The translations under genes were made by a program, and so were the position numbers. The notes under the pieces were generated by a model. That model worked only from the letters and a program-made list of their open reading frames with translations, was not told the DNA's origin and ran no database searches. From the NCBI GenBank assembly GCA_021769135.1, contig JAETTM010000034.1, positions 1 to 64,000 on the forward strand: DNA of 64,000 bases, written 5' to 3'. This document shows positions 14,062 to 60,837 of the stretch, piece after piece. Source of the DNA: Lachnospiraceae bacterium. Its GTDB lineage: Bacteria; Bacillota; Clostridia; Lachnospirales; Lachnospiraceae. Each line of letters starts with the position of its first letter. Position 1 is the first letter of the stretch.

Positions 14062-14125
14062 CCTCATTTCTGCACGGTCTTTTGTGCATACCAGGTTTGC
14101 GGATACCGTGCGGACACAAACTTGG
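14062..14125 (-). promoter_or_regulatory. Pseudoknot leader motif, copy 1 (PTS EIIBC)
   Basis: Sense strand: stem A pairs GTTTGTG (14115-14121) with CGCAAAC (14095-14101). Stem B pairs GCACGGT from the loop of A (14105-14111) with ACCGTGC (14072-14078), giving an H-type pseudoknot. AGAAATGAGG with the ribosome site follows at once. The same fold with different stem sequences precedes metK, galE, the UDP-sugar pyrophosphorylase and two ABC operons. Confidence 0.75.
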
Positions 14126-14225
14126 TGATTGAAATACATTCTTTCAATCTTACACTCCTTGCGTTTTCGGGTTTTTAAAATTTTCCACTTTCATCATGCG
14201 CGCAATCCGATTTATTGGTATGCCC

Positions 14226-14253
14226 ATTATATCATTCAGAATAATTTTGTAAA
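14226..14253 (-). promoter_or_regulatory. Promoter of the PTS/hydrolase operon
   Basis: Minus-strand -35 TTTACA (14248-14253), 16-bp spacer, -10 TATAAT (14226-14231). The leader of about 165 nt contains the pseudoknot motif at 14062-14125. The rest of the gap 14055-14479 is AT-rich, and apart from a small ORF fragment at 14362 I see nothing else in it. Confidence 0.75.
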
Positions 14254-14361
14254 TATTTATAAAGTTTTTAGAAAGTTTATTATTTATTTAAAAAAAATTA
14301 CATTTTGTGAAATTTTTTACAGACGTGGAATGGCCGGACTTAAGGCTGGATAACGGATGAA

Positions 14362-14454
14362 ATGGCAGAAAAAACGGAGAGCCAGAGGATAAAGCGGATT
14401 CATGAACAGGTGAAAAGAATCAAGCTGTCAGAGAAGATGGGGGTGAAATTCGTG
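14362..14454 (+). pseudogene. Possible gene fragment (unrecognised)
   Basis: The frame begins MAEKTESQRIKRIHEQVKR and continues IKLSEKMGVKF, a charged amphipathic stretch that looks protein-like. After about 31 codons it runs into sequence antisense to the YqeG gene. It resembles the tail region of Rpn-type nuclease genes as I remember them, but this is weak. Treat it as a remnant or chance ORF. Confidence 0.25.
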
Positions 14455-14479
14455 AAGCAAAACATATATTGTCTCAATG

Positions 14480-14986
14480 CTAATTGGAAAGGACTTCCCT
14501 GCGAAATGGTTTTTCGAACCAGCGTTTCACTACTACCTGTATTTCATCGGTGGACGGGTCAATGGGCTCTGTCAATACGGAATCTATCCCTGCCCGATTT
14601 GCCCCCCACACGTCGGAAAAAATCTGGTCTCCAATACACAAAGTATTTCCCGGCATAGTTCCCATTTTTCTCATAGCCCAAAGATAACCGCTTTTTCTGG
14701 GCTTGCCCGATTTATATAAATACCCGGTTCCCACCTTATCCGCAAAGGCTTTCACCCTGGCTTCTTTATTGTTTGATAACAGCATCGTTTTCATTCCCAG
14801 CCCGTGGACAACCCGAAAAAGCCCCACTGCCCTGTCATCTGCCGGCGCATCCTGGGGCACCAACGTATTATCAATATCGAATATCACCCCGGCATAACGG
14901 GCCGAGAGCTCTGTCCAGTCTAGTTCATAGACAGATGCGATTACTTTTTTTGGATATAGCTGTTTCAAAAACATATTAATGTCCAT
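14480..14986 (-). CDS. yqeG: YqeG-family HAD phosphatase
   Basis: This 168-residue HAD-superfamily class IIIA phosphatase has nucleophile motif I GVIFDIDNTLVPQD, motif II in MLLSNNKEARV, a lysine near SGKPRKSGYLWA and motif III/IV in CIGDQIFSDVWGANRAG. This architecture and length match YqeG (GEP4/phosphatidylglycerophosphatase-related), which in Firmicutes is often linked to ribosome or cell-envelope genes. It stands alone here between the PTS operon promoter region and a flavoprotein gene. The substrate is not established from the sequence. Confidence 0.9.
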   Translation of the reverse strand: MDINMFLKQLYPKKVIASVYELDWTELSARYAGVIFDIDNTLVPQDAPADDRAVGLFRVVHGLGMKTMLLSNNKEARVKAFADKVGTGYLYKSGKPRKSGYLWAMRKMGTMPGNTLCIGDQIFSDVWGANRAGIDSVLTEPIDPSTDEIQVVVKRWFEKPFRREVLSN

Positions 14987-15040
14987 ACCCTTTCTGTATA
15001 TATTATACTTTTGTACAGAAGAATTTTCCGAATCTCAGGT

Positions 15041-15457
15041 CTAAAACTCATATCTTGTTCCATGTGAAAGTAACAGTCCGTCCGTTAATTCTACACATAA
15101 AATTATAGTGTTTTCATCGTTAAAATTATTATGTCCGTTATCAATCCAGTCAGCAAAGGCATTTTTCAGTTTCCCGGCAATTAAATGATTTTCTTCTTTT
15201 CCCCAATAACCTAAGTTGACACCCTTTCCATGTGCTGTAAACCATTCACCAGCTATTGCAATAGTAGGGTTGCTTTCCATATGTTTCATTTTATTTGAGA
15301 GCGCATATGTAATAATATAAAATGCACCCTTCTCATAATAGGCATTAACATATCGCACATAGGGTACTTCATTTTCTACTGTTGCCAACGCAATAACCGT
15401 GTCTTTTCCAAAACGTTCCATCATTATTTTTTCAGCTTCTGGGCTTAATTTTTTCAT
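15041..15457 (-). CDS. Pyridoxamine 5'-phosphate oxidase-family flavoprotein
   Basis: This 138-residue split-barrel protein of the PNPOx-like/nitroreductase-related superfamily binds FMN or F420-like cofactors. It reads KDTVIALATVENEVPYVRYV then AFYIITYALSNKMKHMESNP and AIAGEWFTAHGKGVNLGYWG, the usual order of beta strands and the Asn-Pro turn in this family. An AGGAGATAACC site precedes the ATG. It is a single gene with no functional partner nearby. The physiological substrate is unknown. Confidence 0.8.
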   Translation of the reverse strand: MKKLSPEAEKIMMERFGKDTVIALATVENEVPYVRYVNAYYEKGAFYIITYALSNKMKHMESNPTIAIAGEWFTAHGKGVNLGYWGKEENHLIAGKLKNAFADWIDNGHNNFNDENTIILCVELTDGLLLSHGTRYEF

Positions 15458-15566
15458 AGGGTTATCTCCTTTACAAATTCAATATCAATTTGTTAGGGTA
15501 ATTATAATTTATTTTTAACGGGTATACAATTCCGAAAATGAACTAAATATATCATTATATATAGAA

Positions 15567-15593
15567 AACGCCATAAGTTTTCCTTATGGCGTT
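15567..15593 (-). terminator. Hairpin after metK
   Basis: AACGCCATAAG (15567-15577) and CTTATGGCGTT (15583-15593) form an 11-bp stem with a 5-nt loop. On the minus strand it is followed by TTTCTATATA, a weak U-tract, about 100 nt beyond the metK stop. Confidence 0.7.
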
Positions 15594-15692
15594 CCACACG
15601 CCGGTTTCCCTCATGCAAAAACAGAATCCATCTTGCAAAAATTGTCCTCCTCCCGGAGGATTATGGCAACCGGCAAATTTATTCATGTCCTA

Positions 15693-16892
15693 CTATAAAT
15701 ATTTTTTCAGTACATCTACTTTATCCAGCTTCTCCCATGGCAAATCCAAATCATTCCTGCCAAAATGCCCATAAGCCGCCGTCTGTTTGTATATCGGCCT
15801 GCGCAAATCCAGCATCTTGATAATGCCCGCCGGACGCAAATCAAAGTTTTCTCGTATGATTTCTACCAGCTTATCGTCTTCCACTTTTCCTGTACCGAAA
15901 GTATCCACCATAATAGAAGTAGGCTGTGCCACTCCGATAGCATAGGACAGCTGGATTTCACATTTTTCCGCAATTCCTGCCGCTACAATGTTTTTCGCTA
16001 CATAGCGAGCCGCATAGGCTGCGGAACGGTCCACCTTTGTGCAGTCCTTGCCGGAGAATGCGCCACCGCCGTGACGGGCATAGCCGCCATAGGTGTCCAC
16101 GATAATCTTACGGCCCGTCAGCCCTGCATCTCCGTGAGGGCCTCCGATTACAAATCGGCCTGTAGGATTAATGAAGAATTTCGTATTTCCATCAATTAAT
16201 TCTGTAGGAAGCACCGGATCAAATACATATTTTTTAATATCCTCGTGAATCTGCTCCTGGGTAACATCATCATCATGCTGGGTGGAGAGCACTACAGCTT
16301 CCAGGCGCAGCGGCTTGCCCTGCGCATCGTATTCTACGGATACCTGGCTCTTTCCATCGGGCCTTAAATATTTCAATGTACCATCCTTGCGCACCTTTGT
16401 CAGCTGACGAACTAATTTATGAGCCAAAGCTATGGAATAAGGCATATACTCTTCCGTTTCATTAGTGGCATAGCCGAACATCATACCCTGGTCTCCAGCG
16501 CCAATCGCCTCGATTTCTTCATCCGTCATCTTCTTCTCAGCGCTTTCCTGTTTTGCTTCCAGCGCCTTGTCAACACCCATTGCAATATCGGAAGACTGCT
16601 CGTCAATCGCTACCAAAACAGCACAGGTATTGCCGTCAAATCCGTATTCCGACTTTGTGTAACCGATTTCCTTAATCGTTTCCCTTGCAATCTTAGGGAT
16701 GTCCACATAAGCATTCGTAGTAATCTCGCCTGTTACGAGCACGAAGCCCGTACATGTAGCCACTTCGCATGCCACACGGCTCATGGGGTCTTCCGCCATC
16801 AGCGCATCCAGTACCGCATCGGAAATGGCATCGCAGACTTTATCGGGATGCCCTTCTGTCACTGATTCCGAAGTAAATAAAAATTTTTCCAT
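15693..16892 (-). CDS. metK: S-adenosylmethionine synthetase
   Basis: The 399-residue enzyme makes SAM from methionine and ATP. The start at 16892 gives the canonical [18 protein letters not shown]; a longer in-frame ORF to 16952 merely reads through the leader. Other signatures are [16 protein letters not shown], the P-loop-like [32 protein letters not shown] and [19 protein letters not shown]. Expression is controlled by a SAM-I riboswitch with terminator about 240 nt upstream. A pseudoknot-like leader lies between that terminator and the ribosome site, so a second control layer is possible. Confidence 0.98.
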
Positions 16893-16898
16893 TTCTTC

Positions 16899-16960
16899 CT
16901 CTTTTCTGCGCGGCTTTTGCCAAACAAGTTTGCGATAGCCGCGCTGACGCAAACTTGCGG
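16899..16960 (-). promoter_or_regulatory. Pseudoknot leader motif, copy 2 (metK)
   Basis: Stem A is GTTTGCG (16948-16954) with CGCAAAC (16928-16934). Stem B is GCGCGGC (16938-16944) with GCCGCGC (16908-16914). Compared with copy 1, stem B changes A-U to G-C and U-A to C-G on both strands, which preserves pairing. AGAAAAGAGG follows. Confidence 0.75.
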
Positions 16961-17115
16961 ATAAAGGAATCCTTTCCTTTTACCCGTTTCTCTTTCGGTT
17001 GGTTCCATAGAAACGCTTTTCTATGGAAATCGAGCGAGAGACGTCCTTCTTCCCTGCTCGTGCGCCGGGCACCCGTCAGCTTTGCTGACATTCTTCCTTT
17101 GGCTGCCGTGCGCAT

Positions 17116-17143
17116 AAAAAAATCCGCTTTCATAAGCGGACTC
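17116..17143 (-). terminator. Riboswitch-controlled terminator of metK
   Basis: Minus strand: TCCGCTT/AAGCGGA hairpin followed by seven U. It directly follows the SAM-I aptamer, so SAM binding is expected to favour termination before metK. Confidence 0.88.
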
Positions 17144-17161
17144 GATAATCGATAATCAAAT

Positions 17162-17295
17162 CCTCTTATTGTTCGATTCATCACAGCAGATACTATCCGC
17201 TGCCAATCATTACTCGCTCAGGTAGGCACCTTCCTCATCAGGGGTTGCCGTGGCTTCATAGGTCCTATGTACCTCCACCACTCTGAATAAGAGAT
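17162..17295 (-). ncRNA. SAM-I (S-box) riboswitch
   Basis: Minus strand: the aptamer begins TCTTATTCAGAGTGGTGGAG, continues with the P2 internal-loop/kink-turn region, then GAAGCCACGGCAACC. It ends with a P4 hairpin and the P1 3' strand AATAAGAG (17162-17169). These are the S-box consensus blocks in order: CTTATCnAGAGnGGnGGAG, then CCnnnGAnnCCnnGCAACC. It lies between a strong promoter and an intrinsic terminator upstream of metK, the classical target. Confidence 0.95.
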
Positions 17296-17329
17296 TCTGC
17301 ACAATATTGAATTTTCATATCTGTGGACT

Positions 17330-17358
17330 AGCATACACTATATTTTGAGCCTTGTCAA
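17330..17358 (-). promoter_or_regulatory. Promoter of the metK riboswitch transcript
   Basis: Minus-strand -35 TTGACA (17353-17358), 17-bp spacer, -10 TATGCT (17330-17335). Transcription would start about 25-30 nt before the riboswitch. Confidence 0.85.
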
Positions 17359-17387
17359 TATATCCCGAAAATATTTTTGCCATGAAA

Positions 17388-17645
17388 GGCAACAATTCAG
17401 CCTTTTCAACAAAATGCAAAGCCCTGGGCTGAACCAATGTCATTTCGTTAACACCTTAGCCAGCTGCGAGAATGATAAAATCCTCAAGAAGCCCTTTGAA
17501 AAACGCCGGCACTTAGGCGCTGTGTTTTAGCGCCTTATGTGTCCGCTGCGTTTTTCCCAGAGCGAGAGCGTGGCGACGGAGGATTTTATCATTCTCACAG
17601 CGTCCGATGCCATTAACTTAGTGACATTGGAACTGAACTGTTACC
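17388..17645. repeat. MITE-like palindromic element, copy 1
   Basis: The element of about 258 bp is bounded by CAACAATTCAGCC at one side and CTGAACTGTTACC at the other. Inside are perfect 18-bp inverted repeats, GAGAATGATAAAATCCTC (17468-17485) and its complement (17579-17596), enclosing nested GGCGCT/AGCGCC hairpins. About 100 bp of the core recurs in inverse orientation at 43682-43783, and outer parts recur at 63045-63182. It has no coding content. It lies between metK's promoter and the sdpI-like gene. Confidence 0.8.
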
Positions 17646-17676
17646 CATGAAAGTTTCCATTTCTTTTTTATATTTT

Positions 17677-18330
17677 TTATGGAATAGACGCAACTTTATA
17701 TGTCAAGAAAACATCAATAACTATTAGAATTACCCATACTCCTAAAACAGATAATAAGCAAAGAGTGCCTTTCATAGCTAAACATATGCCTATTATAATA
17801 ATACCTCCAATAATAAATGAAATTCCTCCTATATGCTGGCATTTTTTCCATGTTGCTTCATTTTTCATGCTCCAATGCGTCCTTAGTCCTATCATAGAGT
17901 TCATCCGCAACTTAGGCATGACATTTCCTGTAATAATCATTAACACGCCGATAATACCAAAAACAAGCTGGGCAATATCCAACGAAATAGATGATAAATT
18001 TTCAACTTTATTAAAGCTTGTGTAAAGGGAATAGACGTTCAAAGCGTTAAACAATACCAGCACTAAAATACCCATAATAATAGTAACGTTTTTATTGTTT
18101 TCCCCATGTTCTTCCTTTTTCGCCGCCAGCTTTGCCATTCCAAGCAGAAAATATCCCATTAAAATACTTACTACCGGAAATAACAAAGACTCATATTTAC
18201 TCCCCCAACGGTCAACCTGATTATCAAACCCATAATGTGCAGGGATTTTTTCGGGAAGATATGGCAATGCAATTAAGGCAACCACTAACGGAAGATACAT
18301 CAAAATATATACTATTTTCTTTTTTTTCAT
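17677..18330 (-). CDS. SdpI/DUF1648-family membrane protein
   Basis: This 217-residue protein has six or so hydrophobic segments. The N-terminal DUF1648 part reads LPEKIPAHYGFDNQVDRWG and the C-terminal SdpI part contains the signature MIGLRTHWSMKNEATWKK. In Bacillus, SdpI is the immunity protein against the SDP toxin and also sequesters its ArsR-type repressor SdpR at the membrane. Here the gene overlaps the upstream ArsR gene by 4 bp, reproducing the sdpRI pair. No sdpABC toxin genes are present, so its role may be signalling or general envelope defence. Confidence 0.88.
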   Translation of the reverse strand: MKKKKIVYILMYLPLVVALIALPYLPEKIPAHYGFDNQVDRWGSKYESLLFPVVSILMGYFLLGMAKLAAKKEEHGENNKNVTIIMGILVLVLFNALNVYSLYTSFNKVENLSSISLDIAQLVFGIIGVLMIITGNVMPKLRMNSMIGLRTHWSMKNEATWKKCQHIGGISFIIGGIIIIGICLAMKGTLCLLSVLGVWVILIVIDVFLTYKVASIP

Positions 18331-18596
18331 TTCTGACCTCCTCGCAGTTCACTAATCCACATGATAGTTTCATCAAGTACTGATAAATTCAATTCATAAT
18401 AAATAAAATTCTTATATTTTGTTTCATAAATCAAATCTGCCTTTTTTAGTTTTGATAAGTGATATGACAGGGCTTGTGGCGTCATGCTTAGAGCATTTGC
18501 CAAATCACCTGAACTTATTTTTCCCTCCTTTAATTTCTGCAAAACTTTTCTTCGATTTTCATCTGCCAACGCCGCAAGTATCTCATTTACCGCCAA
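18327..18596 (-). CDS. ArsR-family autorepressor (SdpR-like)
   Basis: This 89-residue winged-helix regulator uses TTG as start at 18596 behind GGGAGGTGG. The fold reads LAALADENRRKVLQKLKEG, ISSGDLANALSMTPQALSYH as the recognition helix region, and LSKLKKADLIYETKYKNF. It has no cysteine metal-binding pattern, unlike ArsR/SmtB metal sensors. Translational overlap with the SdpI-like gene suggests the SdpR mode, in which the repressor controls its own operon and is titrated by the membrane partner. Confidence 0.88.
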   Translation of the reverse strand: MAVNEILAALADENRRKVLQKLKEGKISSGDLANALSMTPQALSYHLSKLKKADLIYETKYKNFIYYELNLSVLDETIMWISELRGGQK

Positions 18597-18632
18597 TATA
18601 CCACCTCCCTATTTCAATAAATCTTTAAATAG

Positions 18633-18661
18633 ATTATACAAAATATATATGGGGTTGACAA
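18633..18661 (-). promoter_or_regulatory. Promoter of the sdpRI-like operon
   Basis: Minus-strand -35 TTGTCA (18656-18661), 17-bp spacer, -10 TATAAT (18633-18638). AT-rich near-palindromic TTTAAA/TATTTAAA stretches on both sides are candidate repressor sites. Confidence 0.7.
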
Positions 18662-18728
18662 GAGCTATTTAAAAATATTTTTAAACAGTTTCATGCTCTA
18701 ATTATCTGATAATATTTTCCTATAAAGC

Positions 18729-18770
18729 AAAAAAACTGGCATAGCATAATCCTACCTTATGCTATGCCAG
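18729..18770 (-). terminator. Intrinsic terminator of the TauE-family gene
   Basis: A perfect 14-bp stem, CTGGCATAGCATAA (18736-18749) with TTATGCTATGCCAG (18757-18770), is followed on the minus strand by seven U. It sits about 160 nt after the exporter stop codon. The rest of the gap 18597-18927 contains only the sdpRI promoter. Confidence 0.88.
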
Positions 18771-18927
18771 GTCTTGCCTTCCAAAAAGTAACAATCCCGT
18801 TTATACATCTCTTTTATTTTGTATAGATTCCATAACACAATTCATAAAACTGTCAATCCATATTTTTCACAGTTATGGCAATCCCTTTTTGTTCATCTTG
18901 TCCAAAACTTCTCTGCCAAGATGCCTC

Positions 18928-19716: not shown

Positions 19717-19736
19717 AATGAAAACCTCCTCTTTCT

Positions 19737-24601: not shown

Positions 24602-25222
24602 TTATTTCCTGTCTTTCCTGAAATCCCGCCTCTTCCTGACGCTGTAGCCAAATGTTCCGATTTTTCTGCCCAGCGACATATAAGTGCCATGGGTATACAC
24701 GATAGGATGCGCATCCTCCAGATGGAATTTATTTTTTCCGTCCATGTATTTTTCATCCGCATGCACAGCGGCAACCTGAGCGATGAACATATCATGGCTC
24801 CCCAGGCTTTTTACCTCTTTTACAATACACTCGATGTTTACTGGGCTTTCTTTAATCAGCGGGGCTTTTACAATATCCGCCTTAACCGGCGTCAAATGCA
24901 TATTTTTAAATTTGTCCGTATCGCGTCCGCTGGCCACACCGCAGTAATCCGTGGCATAGGCCAACTCTTCTGTGGTCAGATTAATTACAAATTCTCCTGT
25001 CTCTCTTATCATTTGGTAAGAATATCGCTCCGGCCGCACGGAAATAGAAACCATTGGCGGGTCGCTGCATATAGTTCCTGCCCACGCTACCGTAAGCACA
25101 TTTATCTTCCCTCCCCTATCCGCCGTACTTACCAAGACAACCGGCAGGGGATAAAGCATGTTTCCCGGCTTCCAGCTTTGTTTTCCCATTTTTTCCCTCG
25201 CTTCTGCGTTATTTCCCCTCAA
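24602..25222 (-). CDS. Flavin reductase-like domain protein
   Basis: This FMN-binding split-barrel protein of up to 206 residues reads GNMLYPLPVVLVSTADRGG, VAWAGTICSDPPMVSISVRP and EFVINLTTEELAYATDYCGV. The family includes flavin reductases and the flavoprotein subunits of multicomponent oxidases. The annotated ATG at 25222 overlaps the stop of the preceding gene (ATGA), but MGKQSWKPGNM at 25189, behind GCGAGGGAAAA, fits family length better. It is convergent with the polymerase gene. Confidence 0.85.
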   Translation of the reverse strand: MRGNNAEAREKMGKQSWKPGNMLYPLPVVLVSTADRGGKINVLTVAWAGTICSDPPMVSISVRPERYSYQMIRETGEFVINLTTEELAYATDYCGVASGRDTDKFKNMHLTPVKADIVKAPLIKESPVNIECIVKEVKSLGSHDMFIAQVAAVHADEKYMDGKNKFHLEDAHPIVYTHGTYMSLGRKIGTFGYSVRKRRDFRKDRK

Positions 25223-25965
25223 AACACCCCGGCTAAATGGAGAATCAACATGGCTAAATTCACAATTGCCACTATCAGCGTCAAAATACTTACAGCCTTG
25301 GTTCCTTTGCCTTTCCCGGCAAGGTCCTGCTGCCCTCCAAGCACTGCCTGTATCTGTTTCCCTAATTCTTCTGTGGTAGCCGCCTGCACATTCCGGTAAA
25401 CCTTTACGTTTTCTCTGTGCACAAAATCATCGGACTGACGGAACAAATCCTCCAGCCTTTTCATATTCTCCGCAGATATCGCCTTCAATTCTTCCAGCAT
25501 CCTCTGTGCGCTTTCATCCTCTCCGTCATCCAGCGAATTGTCCTCTGTTTCCTTCAGCTTGGCTATACATTCTTCCGTCATCCGGTTTAACTGTACATTG
25601 CCTTCTTCCGCCGTCCGTTTCAACTGGGCACTGCCTTCTTCCGCCAGCCGCTCCAGCTGCACGCCCCCTTTTTCTGTCAGCTGCTCTATCTTCCCGCTGC
25701 CTGTTTCCACCAGCTGTCCGATTTGCCTGCCGTTTTCCTCCAGAGATAATTTTAGCTGTTCATTTACTGCCTCTATCAATTCCTTCAGTTTCTGTTCATT
25801 CTCCGCATTCCGCAAATTCAGCTTGCGCATCTCCTTAATGCAGGCGTTATATTCCGCCGCTTGAGCTTCCAGCCTTTCTATTTGCGCCGCATCCGCGGCC
25901 GCATTTGCACGTATTGCTTCCTGCGCCCCCAATTTCTGCGCAATTTTATCCATAAAATTATCCAT
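25219..25965 (-). CDS. Coiled-coil protein with C-terminal membrane anchor
   Basis: This 248-residue protein is not recognised as a named family. Residues 15-150 are rich in heptads and contain a degenerate repeat of about 12 residues (EKGGVQLERLAEEGSAQLKR and similar, four or five units). The last 25 residues, SILTLIVAIVNLAMLILHLA, form one membrane helix. Such tail-anchored coiled-coil proteins often organise envelope complexes. It overlaps the flavin reductase gene by 4 bp. Its leader carries a degenerate AAAAGTGCAGAAATGAGGAG block related to the pseudoknot leaders. Confidence 0.7.
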   Translation of the reverse strand: MDNFMDKIAQKLGAQEAIRANAAADAAQIERLEAQAAEYNACIKEMRKLNLRNAENEQKLKELIEAVNEQLKLSLEENGRQIGQLVETGSGKIEQLTEKGGVQLERLAEEGSAQLKRTAEEGNVQLNRMTEECIAKLKETEDNSLDDGEDESAQRMLEELKAISAENMKRLEDLFRQSDDFVHRENVKVYRNVQAATTEELGKQIQAVLGGQQDLAGKGKGTKAVSILTLIVAIVNLAMLILHLAGVF

Positions 25966-26199
25966 CTGTCCTCCTCATTTCTGCACTTTTCGCCAACACC
26001 TTTGCCAGTTGCATATCCCAGCAGCTATTCCTGGCAGACTACTATTAACCATCTTATCATCTTTCCCTCCGTTTTACAACTGTTCCCAACTTTTTGTGCA
26101 ATTTGACGTTTTTTTAATTGACGTATTCTCGTTTTTTGTAAATATTAACGTTATCTTTACATCTTGTTCACAATTTGTTCATATTTGATTGCTATACTA

Positions 26200-29749: not shown

Positions 29750-29755
29750 TTTTCT

Positions 29756-29832
29756 CCTCATTTCTGCGCTGCTTTTTCCTGAAGCTTTTTAAGCTTATCC
29801 GGTTTGTGGATACAGCGCCGACACAAACCTGG
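29756..29832 (-). promoter_or_regulatory. Pseudoknot leader motif, copy 3 (galE)
   Basis: Stem A pairs GGTTTGTG with CACAAACC. Stem B pairs GCGCTGT in the loop with GCAGCGC just before AGAAATGAGG. Between them is an extra AAGCTT/AAGCTT hairpin. Stem B differs from copies 1 and 2 at several positions on both strands yet stays paired. Confidence 0.75.
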
Positions 29833-29891
29833 AAATCATGTTTCAGTTACCCTTTTTCATTCATTAGTCTACTCCAGTACCACAATTTTTC

Positions 29892-31158: not shown

Positions 31159-31164
31159 TTTTAC

Positions 31165-31250
31165 CCTCATTTCTGCACGGCTTTTCTATTGTAGCTTTTC
31201 CGGGGCATGCCCTCATGCCCTGTCTGCGGATGCCGTGCGGACACAAACTC
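31165..31250 (-). promoter_or_regulatory. Pseudoknot leader motif, copy 4 (UAP1-like gene)
   Basis: Stem A pairs GTTTGTG with CGCAGAC (one wobble added). Stem B pairs GCACGGC with GCCGTGC. The connecting segment carries an extra GGGCATG/CATGCCC hairpin. AGAAATGAGG follows. Confidence 0.75.
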
Positions 31251-31449
31251 AAGACTGAAAATTTTAATCTTCAATCTTTCACTTCAAAATATATTTTTTC
31301 ATCCGAAAACTATACTATCTGTATCATAGCAAATTATTGGGTAAAATGCAATCAAATAACAGGGCTGGCGCATACAATAATATACGTAATATTAAAAAAC
31401 CTTATTGCCCGCAATTCCGGGCTGATTCGGCAAAGGAGCAAAGAATTAT

Positions 31450-32671: not shown

Positions 32672-33367
32672 CTATATCTCTTCAGCGGGTTCTTCCTCCT
32701 GGAGCCTCAAGCCCGCTGTACTTGTCACCGGAAGGGAAAAAACAATGGATTTAGCCTTGCTGTTCATACCGGCCTGCTCCATAATCGCTTTCATAATTTC
32801 ATTTTTTCCTTTTGATTTGGTAACGATAAATATCATTTCCTTCTCCGCAGCAATGGATACGCCCAAAAACTGTTCCGCCTTTTCCATTCCCGTGCCCTTG
32901 GCATGGATTACCGTACCGCCTCCCGCACCTTTTTCCCTCGCCGCATCCATCACGATATTGCTATAGCCCTGGTTCAAGATAACTATAATTAATTCGTACT
33001 CCGTTTCCTTCAATACGGTTTCCTCCTCTTTTTCAAAATTCTGCCCGTCTGTAAGGAACTGAAGGGCTTTCTTTCCCCCGATGCTGGAAAACGGGATGAT
33101 AAATGCGATTCCCGTTCCCGGCACATCAATATGCATTTTTTTCTGCAGCCCCCGCTTCAGGCGGCGCCACGTTTCCCTTGTCACCGCAGCCGCCATAACC
33201 GCCTTTTCCGTGGCCTCAAGCCCAAAATAGTCCAGCATATCGCTGTTGGCCGTTCCCTCCCCCAAAGTGCTCAAAATAATCGACAAATCGTTTCCTTTAT
33301 AAAATGACAGCATTTTAGAACCGATGCTTCTGTTGGTAATCGTTATCATCATATATATTTTACTCAT
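32672..33367 (-). CDS. PII-like regulatory protein paired with DUF1538
   Basis: This 231-residue protein appears to consist of two PII-like ferredoxin-fold halves. The second half reads YELIIVILNQGYSNIVMDAA, GAGGGTVIHAKGT and AEKEMIFIVTKSKGKNEIMKAI, which matches the P-II pattern (T-loop region after GGGTV). P-II proteins bind nucleotides and 2-oxoglutarate and regulate transporters or enzymes. It follows the DUF1538 membrane protein by 74 bp in the citrate synthase operon, so it probably gates that membrane protein. Confidence 0.82.
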   Translation of the reverse strand: MSKIYMMITITNRSIGSKMLSFYKGNDLSIILSTLGEGTANSDMLDYFGLEATEKAVMAAAVTRETWRRLKRGLQKKMHIDVPGTGIAFIIPFSSIGGKKALQFLTDGQNFEKEEETVLKETEYELIIVILNQGYSNIVMDAAREKGAGGGTVIHAKGTGMEKAEQFLGVSIAAEKEMIFIVTKSKGKNEIMKAIMEQAGMNSKAKSIVFSLPVTSTAGLRLQEEEPAEEI

Positions 33368-35035: not shown

Positions 35036-36406
35036 TCATTTCCTTCCCTCCATATCAGTATAAGCCCGTTCCATCATTACGCTTTTATAGGCAGGGCGGA
35101 TAATTTTATCCGCATTAATCAATTCTTCCAAACGGTGTGCGCTCCATCCCACAATTCTCGCCATGGCGAAAATGGGAGTATAAAGTTCCAACGGTATATC
35201 CAGCATGCTGTATACAAAGCCGCTGTAAAAGTCCACATTCGCGCTTACACCTTTATAAATATTCCGCCTTTCCGCAATCACCTGGGGGGCGAGGCGTTCA
35301 ATCATGGAATATAGTTTAAAATCCTCTTTGCGCCCTTTATCCAGTGCCAGCCTTTCCACGAAACTTTTAAAAATCGTGGCCCTGGGATCGGAAATGGAAT
35401 ACACTGCATGGCCCATCCCATAAATCAGCCCGCTTTTGTCAAACACCTCTTTATTCAACATCCGGGCGAGGTAATCCTTCACTTTTTCCTCATCGTTCAC
35501 ATCTTTCACATTCTTTTTGATGTTCGCCATCATTTCCACTACTTTGATGTTGGCCCCGCCGTGCTTGGGACCTTTCAGGGAAGACAGGGCCGCCGCAATC
35601 ACCGAATATGTATCCGAGCCGGAAGAAGTGACTACGCGGGTAGTAAAAGTGGAATTATTGCCGCCTCCATGCTCCATATGAAGAACCAAGGCAATGTCCA
35701 ATACCTTTGCCTCCAATTCCGAATATTTCATATCCGGGCGCAGCAGCCGAAGGATGTTTTCCGCCGTAGACAGACTGGCATCCGGCCTGTGGATATAAAG
35801 GCTGTCATTTTGTTCATAATGGTTATACGCCTGATAGCCATATACAGCGAGCATGGGAAACACGCTAATCAGCATCATACACTGCCTTAGCACATTAGGA
35901 ATGCTCAAATCCGCCGCCTGTTTATCATAGGAGGCCAGAGTAAGCACGCTTCGCGTCAAAGAGCTCATGATATCCTTGCTGGACGCTTTCATAATCACGT
36001 CCCGGGTAAAATTAGTGGGAAGCGTCCGCATCATCGCCAGCATCCCTTTAAATTCTTTCAGCTGATCCTTATCCGGCAAATCCCCAAACAGCAAAAGATA
36101 AGCAATTTCCTCAAATCCAAATCTGGCGCTGTGCTCGAATCCCCTAACCAGGTCAATAATATCATAACCCCGGTATAGCAATCTGCCTTCGCAGGGAACC
36201 CTTTTGCCATCGATAATTTCCTGGGATTTAATAACGGAGATATTGGTAAGGCCTGCCAGAACCCCTTCCCCGTTTTTATCCCTAAGCCCCCTTTTGACAC
36301 CGTATTCCTCATATAAATTGGTTTCTATATGGTTATTTTTTTTGCACATATCCCCATATTTCACCGTATAGTTTTCCAGTTGCTCTCTTTTGCTGCTTTT
36401 CGTCAT
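35036..36406 (-). CDS. Citrate (2-methylcitrate) synthase
   Basis: This 456-residue enzyme condenses acetyl-CoA with oxaloacetate (or propionyl-CoA in methylcitrate synthases). Family blocks are GRLLYRGYDIIDLV, LVLHMEHGGGNNSTFTTR, SSGSDTYSVIAAAL, GPKHGGANIKV, IYGMGHAVYSISDPRA and VNVDFYSGFVYSML as read from the frame. The first catalytic histidine lies in HGGGNNST and a second in GMGHAVY. The start is behind GGAGGATTGCA. It leads an operon with the DUF1538 and PII-like genes, a link between carbon flow into citrate and a membrane process. Confidence 0.92.
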   Translation of the reverse strand: MTKSSKREQLENYTVKYGDMCKKNNHIETNLYEEYGVKRGLRDKNGEGVLAGLTNISVIKSQEIIDGKRVPCEGRLLYRGYDIIDLVRGFEHSARFGFEEIAYLLLFGDLPDKDQLKEFKGMLAMMRTLPTNFTRDVIMKASSKDIMSSLTRSVLTLASYDKQAADLSIPNVLRQCMMLISVFPMLAVYGYQAYNHYEQNDSLYIHRPDASLSTAENILRLLRPDMKYSELEAKVLDIALVLHMEHGGGNNSTFTTRVVTSSGSDTYSVIAAALSSLKGPKHGGANIKVVEMMANIKKNVKDVNDEEKVKDYLARMLNKEVFDKSGLIYGMGHAVYSISDPRATIFKSFVERLALDKGRKEDFKLYSMIERLAPQVIAERRNIYKGVSANVDFYSGFVYSMLDIPLELYTPIFAMARIVGWSAHRLEELINADKIIRPAYKSVMMERAYTDMEGRK

Positions 36407-36503
36407 TGCAATCCTCCATTTCTTTCCGCTCGACTTCGTTTCTTTCTACTTTCTGCTCAATGACTCCCCCGCCATTAATCAAAACTTAATTTTTTTGCAA
36501 ATA

Positions 36504-43500: not shown

Positions 43501-43634
43501 CTTCCCAGCTATGGTTTTCTCTTCTTTAGTCTTTTGTGCGAACACATTTGTCCGTATTGCGAAAACAATCTGGAATAGTATACGATAAAAATGGAGATTT
43601 GTAAAGATGGGAAATAGAAAAATAGAAATTACTG

Positions 43635-49228: not shown

Positions 49229-49233
49229 ATTTT

Positions 49234-49294
49234 CCCTCGTTTCTGCGCTGCTTTTTGTTTATCATAGAGTCTGCGGACGCAGCACTGACACAGG
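49234..49294 (-). promoter_or_regulatory. Pseudoknot leader motif, copy 5 (fructoside ABC operon)
   Basis: Stem B pairs GTGCTGC with GCAGCGC (one wobble). Stem A is weaker here: CTGTG with CGCAG inside a longer imperfect helix. AGAAACGAGG follows. Confidence 0.65.
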
Positions 49295-49334
49295 CCCTAT
49301 TTTTTAGTCTTGCGTTTCTCGATGCGCGCTTTCG

Positions 49335-55346: not shown

Positions 55347-55353
55347 TGATACC

Positions 55354-55389: not shown

Positions 55390-55446
55390 TATGCTATAGA
55401 TAATTTTCCATTTTTCTCTTAAAATTTCATTCTGACTCCCTGCCCC

Positions 55447-56346
55447 TCAACTCTTCAATCCCGACATTACCACGCTCTGCAAAATATATTTCTGCCCAAA
55501 GACATATAAAACAGTCGGGATAATAATGGACAGCATAACCCCTGCCAATATCACGGATACGCTTCCCGTTCCCATTGCCCCGCTTAGCACTTTCAAACCA
55601 AGGGGCAATGTCATCCTGTCATATTTCGACAGAAAAATTAAAGGATTCAAAAAATCATTCCATGAAGCTAGGAAAGTCAGCAGGGAAGTCATAATAATCA
55701 CCGACTTGGACATAGGCAGAAAGATGCGCAGATAAATCCGGAACCGCCCGGCCCCGTCAATATATGCCGCTTCTTCGTAGCTGTCCGGTATCGTCAGCAT
55801 GTACTGCCGCACAAAAAAGATATTCAATGGGCTGATAATCGACGGTAAAATCAATGACATATGGGTACCTACCAGCCCCATCTTCGACATAACGATATAA
55901 GTGGGAATCAGCTTCGCCTGGCTGGGAATCATCATTCCCGCCAAAATAATCATAAAAACCACATCCCGGCCTTTAAAAGGGATTCGGGCAAAAGCATACC
56001 CCGCCATAGTGGTGATAAAAAGATTGGCAATTACCACCGTAACCGCAATTTTTAAGCTGTTAAAAATCACTTTTGCAAAAGGGAATGCATGGAATACCGC
56101 TATATAATTTTCAAAGTGAAAACTTGTAGGGAAAAAGGATGGCGGCAGCCGAAAGGATTCCTTCGGAAGTCGCAAGGATGTGGAAAAAATCCACGCAAAC
56201 GGCATCAACATCAGTATACAAAGCAAAAGGAGCCCTATAATAAGAATCATCTGGGGAATTTTAACCCTGCTTTTCATTCCGGCCTTTCTCTTTCTTCCCC
56301 TGTTTAACTTTATTTCTCCACTATTTTCCCATTTACTCATAATCAT
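55447..56346 (-). CDS. Carbohydrate ABC transporter permease (MalG type)
   Basis: This six-helix permease of up to 299 residues has the EAA loop DSYEEAAYIDGAGRFRIYLR then IFLPMSKSVIIM. Family segments MPFAWIFSTSLRLPKES and FFVRQYMLTIPDSYEEA are clear. The ORF overlaps the stop of the upstream permease by 14 bp; a start at 56277 (MKSRVKIPQM) is also possible. It forms the importer with the MalF-type permease and the binding protein; the ATPase must be encoded elsewhere. Confidence 0.9.
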   Translation of the reverse strand: MIMSKWENSGEIKLNRGRKRKAGMKSRVKIPQMILIIGLLLLCILMLMPFAWIFSTSLRLPKESFRLPPSFFPTSFHFENYIAVFHAFPFAKVIFNSLKIAVTVVIANLFITTMAGYAFARIPFKGRDVVFMIILAGMMIPSQAKLIPTYIVMSKMGLVGTHMSLILPSIISPLNIFFVRQYMLTIPDSYEEAAYIDGAGRFRIYLRIFLPMSKSVIIMTSLLTFLASWNDFLNPLIFLSKYDRMTLPLGLKVLSGAMGTGSVSVILAGVMLSIIIPTVLYVFGQKYILQSVVMSGLKS

Positions 56347-57250
56347 ACACCACCCACTTGTTTTGTCCGATATACTGAATCACTGTAATTGCCAAAATAA
56401 TGAGAAACAGCACAAAGGAAATCGTAGCGCCATACCCGATGTTCATCTCCTGAAAAGCCGTCTGATAAATTTCAAAAGCAATGGTCTTTGTGGATGAGCC
56501 AGGGCCGCCATTTGTCAAAAGATACGGTTCATCAAAAATCTGGAATACGCTGACAATATTTGTAATAAGTACAAAGAAAATGGTCGGGCTAAGCAGCGGC
56601 AAAGTAATATGGAAAAAGGTCTTTACGGTACTCGCCCCATCTATGGAAGCCGCCTCATAATATACATTCGGTATATTCTGCAGGCCAATAAAATAATACA
56701 AAAAGGTAGTTCCTATAAATTTCCAGAAGCTAAACAGCGCAATCGTCACATACACCATAGTCCTGTCCGTCAGCCAGGGGATATTGCTCCCTCCAAAGAG
56801 CCTTACAAAATAATTGATAACTCCCGTATCCGTGGAAAAAATATAGCCCCAGGCAATTGCCACCGATGCGGTAGTCACAATAGAAGGGAAGTAAATCACT
56901 GTCCGGAAGAAAAACTGAAACCTCGTTGCCTTATATACCAAAAATGCCAATATGAGGCCCAGGCCGCAATGAATTGGGCATAAGATTAGGAGAAATTTAA
57001 AAGTATTTCCAAATGCTACAAGAAGCCCCTTGTCGCTGAACATATGCCGGATATTATCCAGGCCTACAAACTGCGCCGGATTAATCAGATTATATTTAAA
57101 AAAAGACAGCACCGCCGATAAGCCCACGGGAAGCCCGATAAACAGAAAAAAACTGATTAAAGCGGGGGCAAGGAATAAATACCCCGATATATTGTCATGC
57201 ATCTTTTTCTTTTTCATAAAACGGCTCCTGGGTATTTCTTTTTCTTTCAT
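56333..57250 (-). CDS. Carbohydrate ABC transporter permease (MalF type)
   Basis: This 305-residue permease has the EAA loop VYYEAASIDGASTVKTFFHI then TLPLLSPTIFFV, and an N-terminal segment ISGYLFLAPALISFFLFIG typical of the UgpA/MalF branch. It lies between binding protein and second permease in the operon transcribed from 58.85 kb. Confidence 0.92.
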   Translation of the reverse strand: MKEKEIPRSRFMKKKKMHDNISGYLFLAPALISFFLFIGLPVGLSAVLSFFKYNLINPAQFVGLDNIRHMFSDKGLLVAFGNTFKFLLILCPIHCGLGLILAFLVYKATRFQFFFRTVIYFPSIVTTASVAIAWGYIFSTDTGVINYFVRLFGGSNIPWLTDRTMVYVTIALFSFWKFIGTTFLYYFIGLQNIPNVYYEAASIDGASTVKTFFHITLPLLSPTIFFVLITNIVSVFQIFDEPYLLTNGGPGSSTKTIAFEIYQTAFQEMNIGYGATISFVLFLIILAITVIQYIGQNKWVVYDYE

Positions 57251-57366
57251 TTATAACCATACTCCTTTCCATATCTCCCGACCTATCCACGGCCGGAGTT
57301 TTATGCAGCAGCCTGCCCCTCCTCGACATGGCAGGCTGCCGCATATTCCCCCATCCTCATATTCGT

Positions 57367-57388
57367 CAATGACCCCGCCGCAAACAGT
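57367..57388. repeat. CCCCGCCGC repeat, truncated copy 5
   Basis: AATGACCCCGCCGCAAACAG directly after the binding-protein stop; the GCGGGG arm is missing. Confidence 0.4.
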
Positions 57389-58762
57389 TTATTTATTTTC
57401 CGCAAGAACGCTGTTCATCTGTTCTGCCGCTTCATCCAAAGTCGCCTGTACATCCGCCTTATTCACACATATTTCTGATATTGCGGTGAGTACGATATTG
57501 GAGCACTCCGTAAACTGGGGCGGCGCGCTGACCGGTTTATAAATATCCGTATTGGAGTCCAAATAGAACAATTCACAGTTCTCCGGAATGCCCAGGCTGG
57601 AAATTTTATCTTCCGCCAGTGAGTGCAGCGCAGGAATATTTCCTGTTGACAAATATGCCCCTGCGAACTCTGCCTGAGACATCCAGGCTGCCAGTTCTTT
57701 CGCTTCTTCCAGGTGCTTGGAACTGTTAAAGGTGAAAATACCATCCACGCCGCCAATCTGCTGATTCTGGCTGAAGCTGGGAAGATACTGTACCGCAACG
57801 TCTTTAAAATCATTTGCCACATATTGTGCGGTAGGCCACCTTCCCCAGGAGCCCATGGCCACCTGGCCATTGATAATCTGGTCGATAGCGCCTACGTTTT
57901 CCTCAGGAACAGGAGCATAGCCGTATTTATAAATCAAATCCTGCCAAAGCTGGAAAATTTCCACAGATTCCGGCGAGTTTATCGTACTTTCCGTAAAGTC
58001 TTCGTTCATATAGGACGCGCCGTTGTTGTAAAGCCATGCCTCGGCGCAGAAGTACTCGCCATAGGGAACTGCGATTGCATATTGTTTGATGCCATCCTTT
58101 TCCGTAGTCAATGCTTCACAATAGGAGAGGAATTCCTCTTTCGTCCATGACTCCCCCGGGAGTTCCAAATTGGCTTCTTTCAACCTGTCCATGTTAAAAT
58201 GCATTACCACATTATTGAAGGAAAACGGGAAAGCATACGTATTGCCCGCATCGTCTTTAAAGATTTCCTGGAAAGCCGGGCTGGTATCCGCCAAAATGGC
58301 ATCCGCAATCTCCTGATTTGCCGCAATCCAATCATCAATAGGGGCTGCCACTCCCATGTCCAGGAATTTGGAAATTCCTTCTATGGCAACGATTGCGCAG
58401 TCCAGTTCATCTCCGCCCCCTATCATTGTCTGAATCTTCGTACAATACTCTCCCCACGAAGATGCTACAAAGATACTCTCTACCTTAATGCCCGTTTTTT
58501 CCGTATACATTTTCAGAAGATTATCCAGGGCTTCTTTCGTGGTGCCGTCGCCGCACATAGCCAGCGTCAGCGTAATATCCTCCTTCTTTCCCCCTGCATC
58601 TTCCGCGCCCCCTGCATCTTCCTCAGGTTTTGTTTCCGCCGCTGTCTCGCTGCTTTCCGCGGCTTCACTTCCCCCGCCATTCCCGGAATTGCCGCTTTGG
58701 CATCCGGTCAGCCCTATTACCATACAGGCCGCCATCAATAATGCTAAAAATCTCTTTTTCAT
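57389..58762 (-). CDS. Extracellular sugar-binding lipoprotein
   Basis: This 457-residue lipoprotein runs from MKKRFLALLMAACMVIGLTG, with lipobox LTGC. The start at 58762 follows GAGGGTAAACAT, and the longer frame to 58828 is leader. A Gly/Ser/Glu-rich linker precedes the MalE-like fold (ITLTLAMCGDGTTKEALDNL, YTEKTGIKVESIFVASSWGE, WGRWPTAQYVANDFKDVAVQ). It leads the operon with two permeases, and is divergent from a YesM/YesN pair that probably senses the same sugar. Confidence 0.93.
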   Translation of the reverse strand: MKKRFLALLMAACMVIGLTGCQSGNSGNGGGSEAAESSETAAETKPEEDAGGAEDAGGKKEDITLTLAMCGDGTTKEALDNLLKMYTEKTGIKVESIFVASSWGEYCTKIQTMIGGGDELDCAIVAIEGISKFLDMGVAAPIDDWIAANQEIADAILADTSPAFQEIFKDDAGNTYAFPFSFNNVVMHFNMDRLKEANLELPGESWTKEEFLSYCEALTTEKDGIKQYAIAVPYGEYFCAEAWLYNNGASYMNEDFTESTINSPESVEIFQLWQDLIYKYGYAPVPEENVGAIDQIINGQVAMGSWGRWPTAQYVANDFKDVAVQYLPSFSQNQQIGGVDGIFTFNSSKHLEEAKELAAWMSQAEFAGAYLSTGNIPALHSLAEDKISSLGIPENCELFYLDSNTDIYKPVSAPPQFTECSNIVLTAISEICVNKADVQATLDEAAEQMNSVLAENK

Positions 58763-58770
58763 ATGTTTAC

Positions 58771-58834
58771 CCTCATTTCTGCGCGGCTTTTTGTACATGC
58801 CAGATTTACAGGCGCCGCACAACCGCAAATCTGG
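58771..58834 (-). promoter_or_regulatory. Pseudoknot leader motif, copy 6 (second ABC operon)
   Basis: Stem A pairs CCAGATTT with AAATCTGG (8 bp, a sequence unlike the other copies). Stem B pairs GTGCGGC with GCCGCGC (one wobble). AGAAATGAGG follows. The promoter at 58851-58879 starts transcription roughly 10 nt before the motif, so it makes up nearly the whole 5' UTR. Confidence 0.78.
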
Positions 58835-58850
58835 CTGTTTTGTATGACTT

Positions 58851-58879
58851 ACTATACCATTCTCCTACTTTTCGGTAAA
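58851..58879 (-). promoter_or_regulatory. Promoter of the second ABC operon
   Basis: Minus-strand -35 TTTACC (58874-58879), 17-bp spacer, -10 TATAGT (58851-58856). Confidence 0.75.
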
Positions 58880-58998
58880 TGAACTATTGATTGGTGGTTG
58901 GTAATATTGTTGGCTCTTTCGTAAGAAACGTTTAAATTTTCTGCCACAATGCTATAATTACAATGTCGATATGCACTTTTCCCGGAAAGGAGGACGTT

Positions 58999-60762
58999 AT
59001 GAGCATAAACCGCCAGAAAAAATTTAACCCGAACTCCATTGCTGTAAAATACTTCGCTGTAACATGTATTTTCATCATTGTGCCTATATTGGTTTTCTTT
59101 ATACTGGCACAACGCTTTAATACCGATACTGTCCTTGACCAGAAACGCCGCTCCGACCTTTCCACTTTAAATGCATTCGCTTCTTCTATCAGCGCATACA
59201 TGGCTTCTATCGAGGCCATTGCCAGCCTTATCGTGCGCGACGAAGCTGTTCAGGATTTTATAAATGCTTCATCCTTGTCCTCCATGTCGCATGGGAAAGC
59301 CATATATAAAGAGCTGGATTCTTCCTTGTGCCTCGCTCCCTTTTCCGACATAGATGCATCCATCCTCGCCGCAGGGCTGACCGACTCCTCCGGCCTCTTT
59401 ATTGGTGAACACATGCTCAATCCTGACCGGCTTTCCTATTTCTTTCATAATTTCTTTACGAAGAAAGGGCCTATCCTGGAACCGGTATGGACCAATACGT
59501 TTTCCATCGAATTCCGGGATTCCGGCGAAGTAAAAAAGGTTCTCGCCCACTTGACTCCCGTTAAGGATAAGGAGGGAAACATATCCGGCTATCTGGTGCT
59601 GTTCCTGGATACCCATAAATTCAGCGAACTTCTCACCGCATATTCCGATGATATTTATGTACTGGAAAATGTATATATTATCGGAAGCAAACGGAAAGTT
59701 CCCGTCAATACCAGCCTCTACAGCTTCAGCCAGATTAACTATGGCCTGCTTTTAAATGACAACTGCGTCATCATAGACCAGGAAGATGACTCCTTAGTGG
59801 TCACCACCAAGGTTTTCCCCCAGCTTGACTTCCGCCTGCTTTTAATTTCCTCCTACCGGGAACTGCGGGAGAACTCTGTCATTGTCTATCCGAATTTGTT
59901 TACCGTTATGATTTGGGGCATCTTTTTTGCAGTGGTTTCTTCTCTTGTTATCGCCCGGTTCCAGGCAAGGCCTATCTTCTATTTAATAGGTATTATGGAA
60001 CATGTAAAGGAAGGAAATTTCAATATCCGTTTCCAATCCAAAGCGAAAGATGAAATCTCCGAACTGGGTTTTACTTTTAATTCCCTTTTGGACAAAGTAC
60101 AGGCTCTGATGGATGAGCAGAAAGAAAATCAGAAACGAAAGCAGAAAATGGAGATGCAAATGCTTCAGGAACAGGTCAAACCCCATTTCCTCTATAATGT
60201 GCTGGAAATGACCAGCAGCCTGATACGCTGTTCCCTGTATCAGGAAGCCATGGATACTTTGGAAAATCTGGCCAGTTTTTACCGTATTTCCTTAAATAAC
60301 GGTTCCAATATCATAACGGTAAAAAATGAAATCCAGTTGGTGGAAAACTATCTCCATCTCCAGAAAATGCGCTACATTGAATTTATGGATTACATGGTGG
60401 CTTTCAGCCCCAATATTTATGATTATTCCATCCCCAAGCTCACCCTCCAGCCCCTGGTGGAAAACGCAATCTATCACGGCATCAAGGAAAAAGGGGAGGC
60501 GGGCATCCTCTGTGTAACCGGCTATCTGGACGGTCAGCGGGTTGTATTTGAAATCTATGATACGGGAACGGGGATTGCACCGCAGAAAATCAAAGAATTG
60601 GAAGAAGCCGTCGCCGCCGAAACGGATATCAGCAACCATTTCGGCCTGGCCAGCGTGGTCAAACGGCTCAACATCCATTATAACAATCAGGCGAAACTGC
60701 TCATCGAAAGCAAACTATCTGAATATACTTGTGTCACCCTGTCCTTTCCGGCGGAAAAATAA
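58999..60762 (+). CDS. YesM-type sensor histidine kinase
   Basis: The 587-residue kinase starts at 58999 behind AAAGGAGGACGTT. Two membrane helices (about residues 18-40 and 300-325) flank an extracellular sensor. HAMP (ILIMEHVKEGNFNIRF region) is followed by a His_kinase domain with the phospho-acceptor in EQVKPHFLYNVLEM, then an HATPase domain with LTLQPLVENAIYHGI and DTGTGI. Its partner is the YesN-like regulator 82 bp downstream, and the divergent ABC operon is the likely target. Confidence 0.93.
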   Translation: MSINRQKKFNPNSIAVKYFAVTCIFIIVPILVFFILAQRFNTDTVLDQKRRSDLSTLNAFASSISAYMASIEAIASLIVRDEAVQDFINASSLSSMSHGKAIYKELDSSLCLAPFSDIDASILAAGLTDSSGLFIGEHMLNPDRLSYFFHNFFTKKGPILEPVWTNTFSIEFRDSGEVKKVLAHLTPVKDKEGNISGYLVLFLDTHKFSELLTAYSDDIYVLENVYIIGSKRKVPVNTSLYSFSQINYGLLLNDNCVIIDQEDDSLVVTTKVFPQLDFRLLLISSYRELRENSVIVYPNLFTVMIWGIFFAVVSSLVIARFQARPIFYLIGIMEHVKEGNFNIRFQSKAKDEISELGFTFNSLLDKVQALMDEQKENQKRKQKMEMQMLQEQVKPHFLYNVLEMTSSLIRCSLYQEAMDTLENLASFYRISLNNGSNIITVKNEIQLVENYLHLQKMRYIEFMDYMVAFSPNIYDYSIPKLTLQPLVENAIYHGIKEKGEAGILCVTGYLDGQRVVFEIYDTGTGIAPQKIKELEEAVAAETDISNHFGLASVVKRLNIHYNNQAKLLIESKLSEYTCVTLSFPAEK

Positions 60763-60794
60763 GCCAGAAGGGCATACAGCAAAATTTGTTCCTG

Positions 60795-60837
60795 CAGACA
60801 CGAACTTGATATACACAAAAAGCTGCACAGAAACGGA
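60795..60837 (+). promoter_or_regulatory. Possible pseudoknot leader motif, diverged copy 7 (yesN-like gene)
   Basis: Plus strand: GTTC and GAAC can form a short stem A around TGCAG, which can pair with CTGCA directly before CAGAAACGGAG and the start codon. The AAAAAGCTGCACAGAAACGG segment resembles the 3' half of the six stronger copies. Stems are short, so the assignment is tentative. Confidence 0.4.

Follow-up and report, generated by a model that had tools for sequence, protein, structure and literature searches.

A putative mobile pseudoknot leader with its own Shine-Dalgarno box, dispersed at the start codons of unrelated genes in Lachnospiraceae

Small interspersed repeats and miniature inverted-repeat transposable elements (MITEs), such as pneumococcal BOX and enterobacterial ERIC, are short, non-coding sequences that form stem-loops and differ in presence or absence between genomes. 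Among structured RNAs, the preQ1 and SAM-II riboswitches are H-type pseudoknots in which the second stem closes a loop near the Shine-Dalgarno (SD) sequence and the SD itself lies within the fold. Here we describe a leader element that recurs ahead of unrelated genes in a 64,000-nucleotide stretch from a Lachnospiraceae bacterium (assembly GCA_021769135.1, contig JAETTM010000034.1, positions 1 to 64,000; hereafter ‘the window’). It resembles BOX- and ERIC-type repeats in being short, non-coding, dispersed and present in high copy number, in its stem-loops and in its insertion polymorphism at orthologous sites. It differs from them in sitting at start codons with its own SD and a covarying pseudoknot, and from the two riboswitches in that the SD follows the fold, the second loop varies and no Rfam family is matched. 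Two pseudoknots at single loci are also comparable. The authors of PMC11228461 report that a pseudoknot in timP mRNA is essential for translation initiation; this too is a pseudoknot in a bacterial mRNA, but timP is a single enterobacterial toxin locus with an antitoxin RNA and is not dispersed. The pseudoknot of T4/T2 gene 32, as described in passages of PMC3014915, has coaxially stacked stems, lies 67 nt upstream of the start and binds a repressor; it likewise lies upstream of a ribosome-binding site, but it serves one gene and is repressor-bound. A term search within a MITE review (PMC10969869) gave no occurrence of ‘ribosom’, ‘start codon’ or ‘Shine-Dalgarno’, and a title- and abstract-level search of open-licence literature returned no paper describing the leader.

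The six leaders on the minus strand of the window (Table 1) each fit an H-type pseudoknot with a stem A of 7–10 bp, a stem B of 7 bp and an insert of variable length. The 5′ half of the leader is a hairpin (stem A), and seven bases of its loop pair with the seven bases immediately 5′ of a near-invariant box, AGAAAYGAGG. This box directly abuts stem B and, in the window leaders, is followed after 5–8 nt by the start codon. A complete cassette comprises a left-end palindrome, the H-type pseudoknot with, in many copies, an insert hairpin, the extended SD box AGAAAYGAGG and a spacer. A sequence-only reading of the window had placed these six leaders and a weak copy on the plus strand, and all seven are recovered by the covariance model R1 introduced below; the stem B pairs that it quoted agree with the sequences as read directly and aligned. 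Two of its details need amendment: the box stands before the start in most copies, but the metK leader and the plus-strand copy depart from it, and the left-end palindrome of the phosphotransferase-system (PTS) copy and a box that lacks a pseudoknot had been omitted. The latter is possibly a remnant of a leader. The plus-strand copy is regarded as decayed because most of the 5′ arm of its stem B is lost, and in the leader at 58766–58838 the sequence of stem A (CCAGATTTGCG/TGTAAATCTGG) has diverged with its pairing kept.

The 14-base leader end GYRCAGAAAYGAGG occurs 13 times in the window with at most two mismatches, against 2.3 expected (none of 100 shuffles reached 13), and with at most one mismatch it occurs 152 times in the whole 4.43-Mb genome, against 4 for a reversed control pattern. 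R1 was built from 18 aligned copies, chosen with pairing in view, and has stem A as its sole paired part, the arms of stem B being entered as plain sequence. In the genome from which the window comes (the own genome, a draft), it gave 143 matches at E ≤ 0.1 from 150 candidates scored, the weakest of which may be decayed or chance matches; over 67 sources searched, 79 matches, 76 of them distinct, reach E ≤ 1e-6, with E-values that are rough owing to a short calibration.

In the alignment of 18 copies, 10 of the 17 base pairs change on both sides, with a covariation score reached by none of 500 shuffles. Because R1 holds no pairing for stem B, the pairing of stem B in the copies that it finds is a largely independent test. 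In the own genome (76 distinct rows), 96.6% of stem B cells hold standard pairs, and five of the seven pairs show two-sided changes, 39 in all; the 40 rows taken from other genera (24 genomes) give 98.9% and 27, again in five of the seven. For both sets of rows, none of 500 shuffles, which keep relatedness in, scored as high, and sliding the stem B partner by one to three columns lowered pairing to 10–51%. Over both stems, two-sided changes are found in 13 of the 17 pairs in the other genomes. Since stem B covaries in copies that were found without modelling its pairing, the leader is best regarded as a selected RNA structure, as the sequence-only reading had suggested. That reading had also seen no named riboswitch in it, and indeed no family of Rfam 15 reaches its gathering score on any leader of the window, where Rfam recognises only glmS, DUF3800-XI and, ahead of metK, SAM-I; the leader of the UAP1-like gene, scanned by itself with E allowed up to 10, gave no match either.

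Among 116 distinct R1 hits (76 from the own genome and 40 from other genomes), the start of an open reading frame (ORF) follows the box in 113, at a distance of 3–9 nt in 112 and of 17 nt in one. Two of the remaining three are the outer members of tandem copies, and the third has just a short ORF after it. The box is complementary to all but one of the last ten bases of 16S rRNA, 5′-CCUCCUUUCU-3′, where we take the mature chain to end as in Bacillus subtilis. The mismatch is kept: position 6 of the box is T in 102 hits, A in 8 and C in 6, but never G. A G there would give the perfect complement AGAAAGGAGG; it was also absent from the copies used to train R1. If the 16S chain ends at this point, stem B starts where it ends and would stack on the duplex between mRNA and 16S rRNA. 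Five of 20 genomes searched contain the tail GGATCACCTCCTTTCT; four belong to the same genus as the own genome, including strain 28-4 (55 R1 matches), and the fifth to the order. In 31 boxes without a pseudoknot, G[CT][AG]C is kept before the box in 25, and a helix with a score of at least 4 ends exactly at the box in 14, against 17% in shuffles; moving the end point by one to six bases leaves 1–7 such boxes.

The genes that follow the leader are varied. By pairing score, 72 own-genome copies were called, and the proteins of the 70 with an ORF were scanned. They include enolase, phosphofructokinase, methionine adenosyltransferase, UDP-glucose epimerase, CTP synthase, acetate kinase, uracil phosphoribosyltransferase, malic enzyme, threonyl-tRNA-synthetase-type and HisRS-like proteins, several PTS and ATP-binding cassette (ABC) components, alcohol dehydrogenases, the antitoxins RelB and MazE, and uncharacterised proteins. 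These 70 proteins have unrelated functions with no pathway in common, in keeping with the sequence-only reading of a leader common to many unrelated genes, and they do not suggest a regulon.

Filled and empty orthologous sites were judged by eye on printed upstream regions, and ackA, thrS and two further genes proved polymorphic. At ackA, strain 526-35 has no pseudoknot and only the box AGAAATGGAG, IMSAGC_002 has one copy and the own genome has two nested copies, the second sitting exactly between the SD plus spacer of the first and the ATG. The thrS leader is present in the own genome and UBA11962 and absent from IMSAGC_002, 526-35 and 28-4; over the 300 residues compared, the IMSAGC_002 protein is 98.7% identical to that of the own genome. 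ORF 35036–36406 has a plain SD in the own genome, IMSAGC_002, 28-4, S10_Bin3, K. alysoides and AS21ysBPME_273, and its orthologue in 526-35 carries an inserted leader, with stem A starting 4 nt after GGAGG. For ORF 32672–33367, tandem copies precede the orthologue in IMSAGC_002 only, with none in the own genome, 526-35, 28-4 or S10_Bin3. The radical-SAM gene of locus L037 proved uninformative as an empty-site query, since 17 of 20 genomes had nothing matching it at E ≤ 1e-40.

The galE leader is present in the own genome and, with a changed stem B, in two close relatives, the other relatives shown being without it. Its stem B reads GCGCTGT/GCAGCGC in the own genome and GCGCTGC/GCGGCGC in 526-35, so that the two differ by a pair of one-sided changes and both remain paired; the IMSAGC_002 copy, with GCGCGGC/GCCGCGC, looks like a different and younger one. 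Stem B of the UAP1-like leader reads GCACGGC/GCCGTGC in the own genome and GCACGGT/GCTGTGC in 526-35, where the changes are one-sided and stem A has lost its 5′ arm; the IMSAGC_002 version, GCGCAGT/GCTGCGC, shows two two-sided changes if this is the same copy.

The left end of many copies is a palindrome, GATTGAAAATT...AATTTTCAATC or GAGTGAAAGATTT...AAATCTTTCACTC. In its perfect first form it occurs at 15 sites in the genome, all 15 adjoining an R1 match. Left ends were scanned in a set of 145 copies, which holds at least one chance match (window, plus strand, near 43616). A left end was recognised in 58 of these, and 40 of the 58 carry an SD-like motif 5′ of it, at about the spacing that would precede a start codon; among control positions the figure is 159 of 2280 (7%). 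Further, 17 of 25 testable copies have their closest relative within the genome that carries them, where permutation gives 1.2 (the set being 39 copies of other genomes, with one member of a pair ahead of a single paralogous gene, at locus L241, dropped), which points to repeated amplification within genomes. Given the filled and empty sites, the nested copies and the SD-like leftovers upstream, together with these within-genome subfamilies, identification of the element as a mobile leader cassette, one of two possibilities raised by the sequence-only reading, appears well supported.

We propose that this small, non-coding cassette would copy itself, or be copied by a presumed moving enzyme, into the interval between a native SD and the start codon, replacing the ribosome-binding site of the gene with its own. 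In the mRNA, the pseudoknot would bring stem B, which is GC-rich, flush against the SD box, and stem B may then stack end-to-end on the duplex of the box with the 3′ tail of 16S rRNA. Such a stacked helix would recruit the small subunit and protect the leader, so that translation no longer depended on the old leader. Diverged copies keep both stems, a helix often abuts even those boxes that lack a pseudoknot, and nested folds give no sign of a hidden SD; these points favour a portable constitutive leader over a switch; besides promoting translation, it might perhaps protect the mRNA. From the sequences, we place a portable ribosome-loading leader cassette, inserted at start codons with stem B stacked on the box–16S duplex, slightly on the likely side. 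The bolder formulation, that a mobile ribosome-binding site has rewired the initiation of at least 100 genes through a pseudoknot helix on the full-length 16S-tail duplex, is offered tentatively, as falling slightly on the doubtful side.

Several observations weigh against this proposal. The exact 16S tail pattern is absent from 15 of the 20 genomes, among them the own draft and, from other genera, three genomes assembled as a single contig. At the boxes without a pseudoknot, the mean helix score is 3.18 one base off against 3.23 at the box, although scores of at least 4 halve from 14 to 7, and these 31 loci are a non-random set, fetched because they matched the box or R1. In nested folds, which leave the pseudoknot out, accessibility from the SD to the start codon is the same as in shuffled leaders (0.613 vs 0.610, 110 leaders), with no sign of a hidden or a specially open SD, no dedicated search for SD-hiding stems having been made; sequestration of the SD was rejected on the same figures, and the gating of ribosome access put forward in the sequence-only reading is not borne out by them. 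The covariation has its own caveats: the 18 training copies of R1 sit among the own-genome rows (none is among the 40 from other genera), those 40 rows were drawn from among the strongest matches of a family-wide search, and the in-place galE changes between the own genome and 526-35 are one-sided only. As to mobility, a left end of the form searched for was recognised in only 58 of 145 copies, inspection by eye of the printed ends revealed neither terminal inverted repeats nor target duplications, only a left-end palindrome, and the copy at 12401–12485 of locus L164, outside the 116 hits, is a decayed orphan with a broken stem B, no ORF and a terminator-like hairpin following it.

A global translational switch, in which the pseudoknot is bound by a protein, a small RNA or a small molecule that shifts all the genes together, would sit well with a strongly conserved, covarying fold found at the ribosome-binding site in 113 of 116 hits, and with a first loop (TCT) and an A-run before stem B that are fairly conserved among 40 copies. 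The second loop of these copies is variable, however, with commonest bases at 53–68%, which would be unusual for a strict ligand pocket; the target genes lack a common pathway, orthologues in close species lack the leader, and SD accessibility matches that of shuffled leaders. One competing local stem was tested, a hairpin between ATGCRC of the third loop and the 3′ arm of stem B, no wider search having been made: it is not supported in the own genome, where 66.2% is paired against 65.1% in shuffles (52 of 500 as high), and in other genomes, at 69.0% against 65.3% with a covariation score reached by none of 500 shuffles, it stands weakly above shuffles and was not adopted, though it keeps some likelihood there. 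We regard a switch as unlikely. A selfish repeat, whose stems serve DNA transposition only and whose carried SD makes copies at start codons harmless, is a still less probable account. Dispersal and nested insertion fit it, as do the confinement of the left palindrome to the element in the own genome and the single orphan copy, but the galE stem B has stayed paired through one-sided changes between the own genome and 526-35, and both stems persist in the 87 of 145 copies, a majority, in which no left end was recognised. Start codons are, moreover, where almost every copy sits, whereas pneumococcal BOX repeats, in passages of PMC3049150, are over-represented between convergent genes.

Very improbable is an ancient, immobile leader that was inherited vertically and frequently lost: some sites, such as galE, are common to three close species, yet this would leave the nested copies, the sites filled in a single species and the same-genome nearest neighbours to be explained. 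The SD-like motif at a suitable distance upstream in 40 of the 58 copies with a left end could also belong to a leader peptide, read from the TTG or GTG of the left palindrome and coupled to the gene. This idea, which we find scarcely credible, was rejected, as the frame through the element varies (0, 1 or 2), the position of the stop ranges from ahead of the start codon to well within the gene, and changes follow base pairing.

In a sample of 397 Lachnospiraceae genomes, with at most 11 candidates scored in each, 55 match at E ≤ 1e-5, representing 50 of 334 genera, own included. As far as the window copies show, the leader would be an RNA family outside Rfam 15, present in about one-seventh of the sampled genera of the family. 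A class-wide sample of 391 genomes gave two matches at E ≤ 1e-6, the own genome and one of the same family. Among 61 relatives at E ≤ 0.01, one genome from another family of the order has two matches (best E 5.5e-14), and four more genomes of the order have one weak match each (E 0.003–0.01). Within the genus, at E ≤ 1e-3, numbers run from none in Kineothrix alysoides to at least 126–130 in strains 526-35 and IMSAGC_002, several genomes having been entered twice; copy numbers in these many-genome searches, which scored 11–131 candidates per genome, are lower bounds. One 141-base query found no match in 72,556 plasmid records. Among 50,697 phage records, 17 match, all unannotated ‘Bacteriophage sp.’ entries from human faeces (L317, L318 and 15 further), and these copies are possibly bacterial DNA. 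The two records opened are scaffolds marked UNVERIFIED and without annotation, and so no inference is taken from them. Among viral contigs, the exact pattern occurs in one stretch.

If the proposal is correct, ribosome-binding sites can spread as mobile cassettes, and a bacterium could re-set the translation of many genes at once, giving gut Lachnospiraceae a genome-wide, spreading layer of translation control. Filled and empty orthologues would then form a natural experiment on SD-adjacent structure and initiation, and the copies would provide ready-made, species-fitting leaders for anaerobe genetics.

Table 1. Leaders, their parts and associated features in the window.
Feature	Position	Strand	Details
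PTS EIIBC leader	14057–14129	−	start codon 14054; R1 79.5 bits
PTS leader, stem A	14124–14115/14101–14092	−	from sequence
PTS leader, stem B GCACGGT/ACCGTGC	14111–14105/14078–14072	−	from sequence
PTS leader, SD box AGAAATGAGG	14071–14062	−	from sequence
PTS copy, left-end palindrome GATTGAAAG...TTTCAATC	14127–14149	−	SD-like GGAG before it; left-end scan
metK leader	16893–16962	−	box AGAAAAGAGG; 23-nt insert; R1 69.2 bits; metK by TIGR01034
Terminator-like stem upstream of metK leader	17120–17143	−	terminator scan
SAM-I riboswitch aptamer upstream of metK leader	17163–17293	−	Rfam RF00162, 67.9 bits
GTGCAGAAATGAGG (AGAAATGAGG box) without pseudoknot, before ORF 25219–25965	25973–25986	−	motif scan
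galE leader	29751–29836	−	39-nt insert with own hairpin; R1 72.7 bits
UAP1-like gene leader	31160–31256	−	50-nt insert; R1 64.6 bits
Empty site at the start of ORF 35036–36406 (start codon and plain SD, GGAGG)	36404–36417	−	526-35 orthologue carries inserted leader
ABC sugar permease operon leader	49230–49303	−	R1 77.7 bits
Second ABC operon leader	58766–58838	−	R1 70.5 bits; operon label from the sequence-only reading
Decayed copy before ORF 60845–62392	60776–60843	+	R1 32.3 bits; box AGAAACGGAG

Some gene labels in Table 1 are provisional. The permease label at 49230–49303 rests on weak NCBIfam matches below their cut-offs, and the proteins of the UAP1-like gene and the second ABC operon had no NCBIfam match at E 1e-8, both names being those of the sequence-only reading. 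Upstream of metK, the SAM-I riboswitch and a terminator-like stem are followed by the pseudoknot leader, placing two RNA devices in series; lying downstream of both, the metK leader would act on read-through transcripts. The two other Rfam matches of the window are a glmS ribozyme at 5109–5275 and a DUF3800-XI RNA at 7680–7727, both on the minus strand.

In one genome (G255; loci L255, L256, L259 and L260) the leaders form a subfamily whose loop is longer (GCGCGCTGCTTG or similar), and all 11 candidates scored there match. A second recurrent leader end, GAAAGGAGYATGG(TTAT), lies at 57257–57269 on the minus strand of the window, before ORF 56333–57250, and again at L087 560, L152 7799, L171 2164 and 9992, and L197 2394. 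In the cases read it stands a few bases before the start codon, in places with a small hairpin preceding it, and it may represent another dispersed leader of these bacteria.

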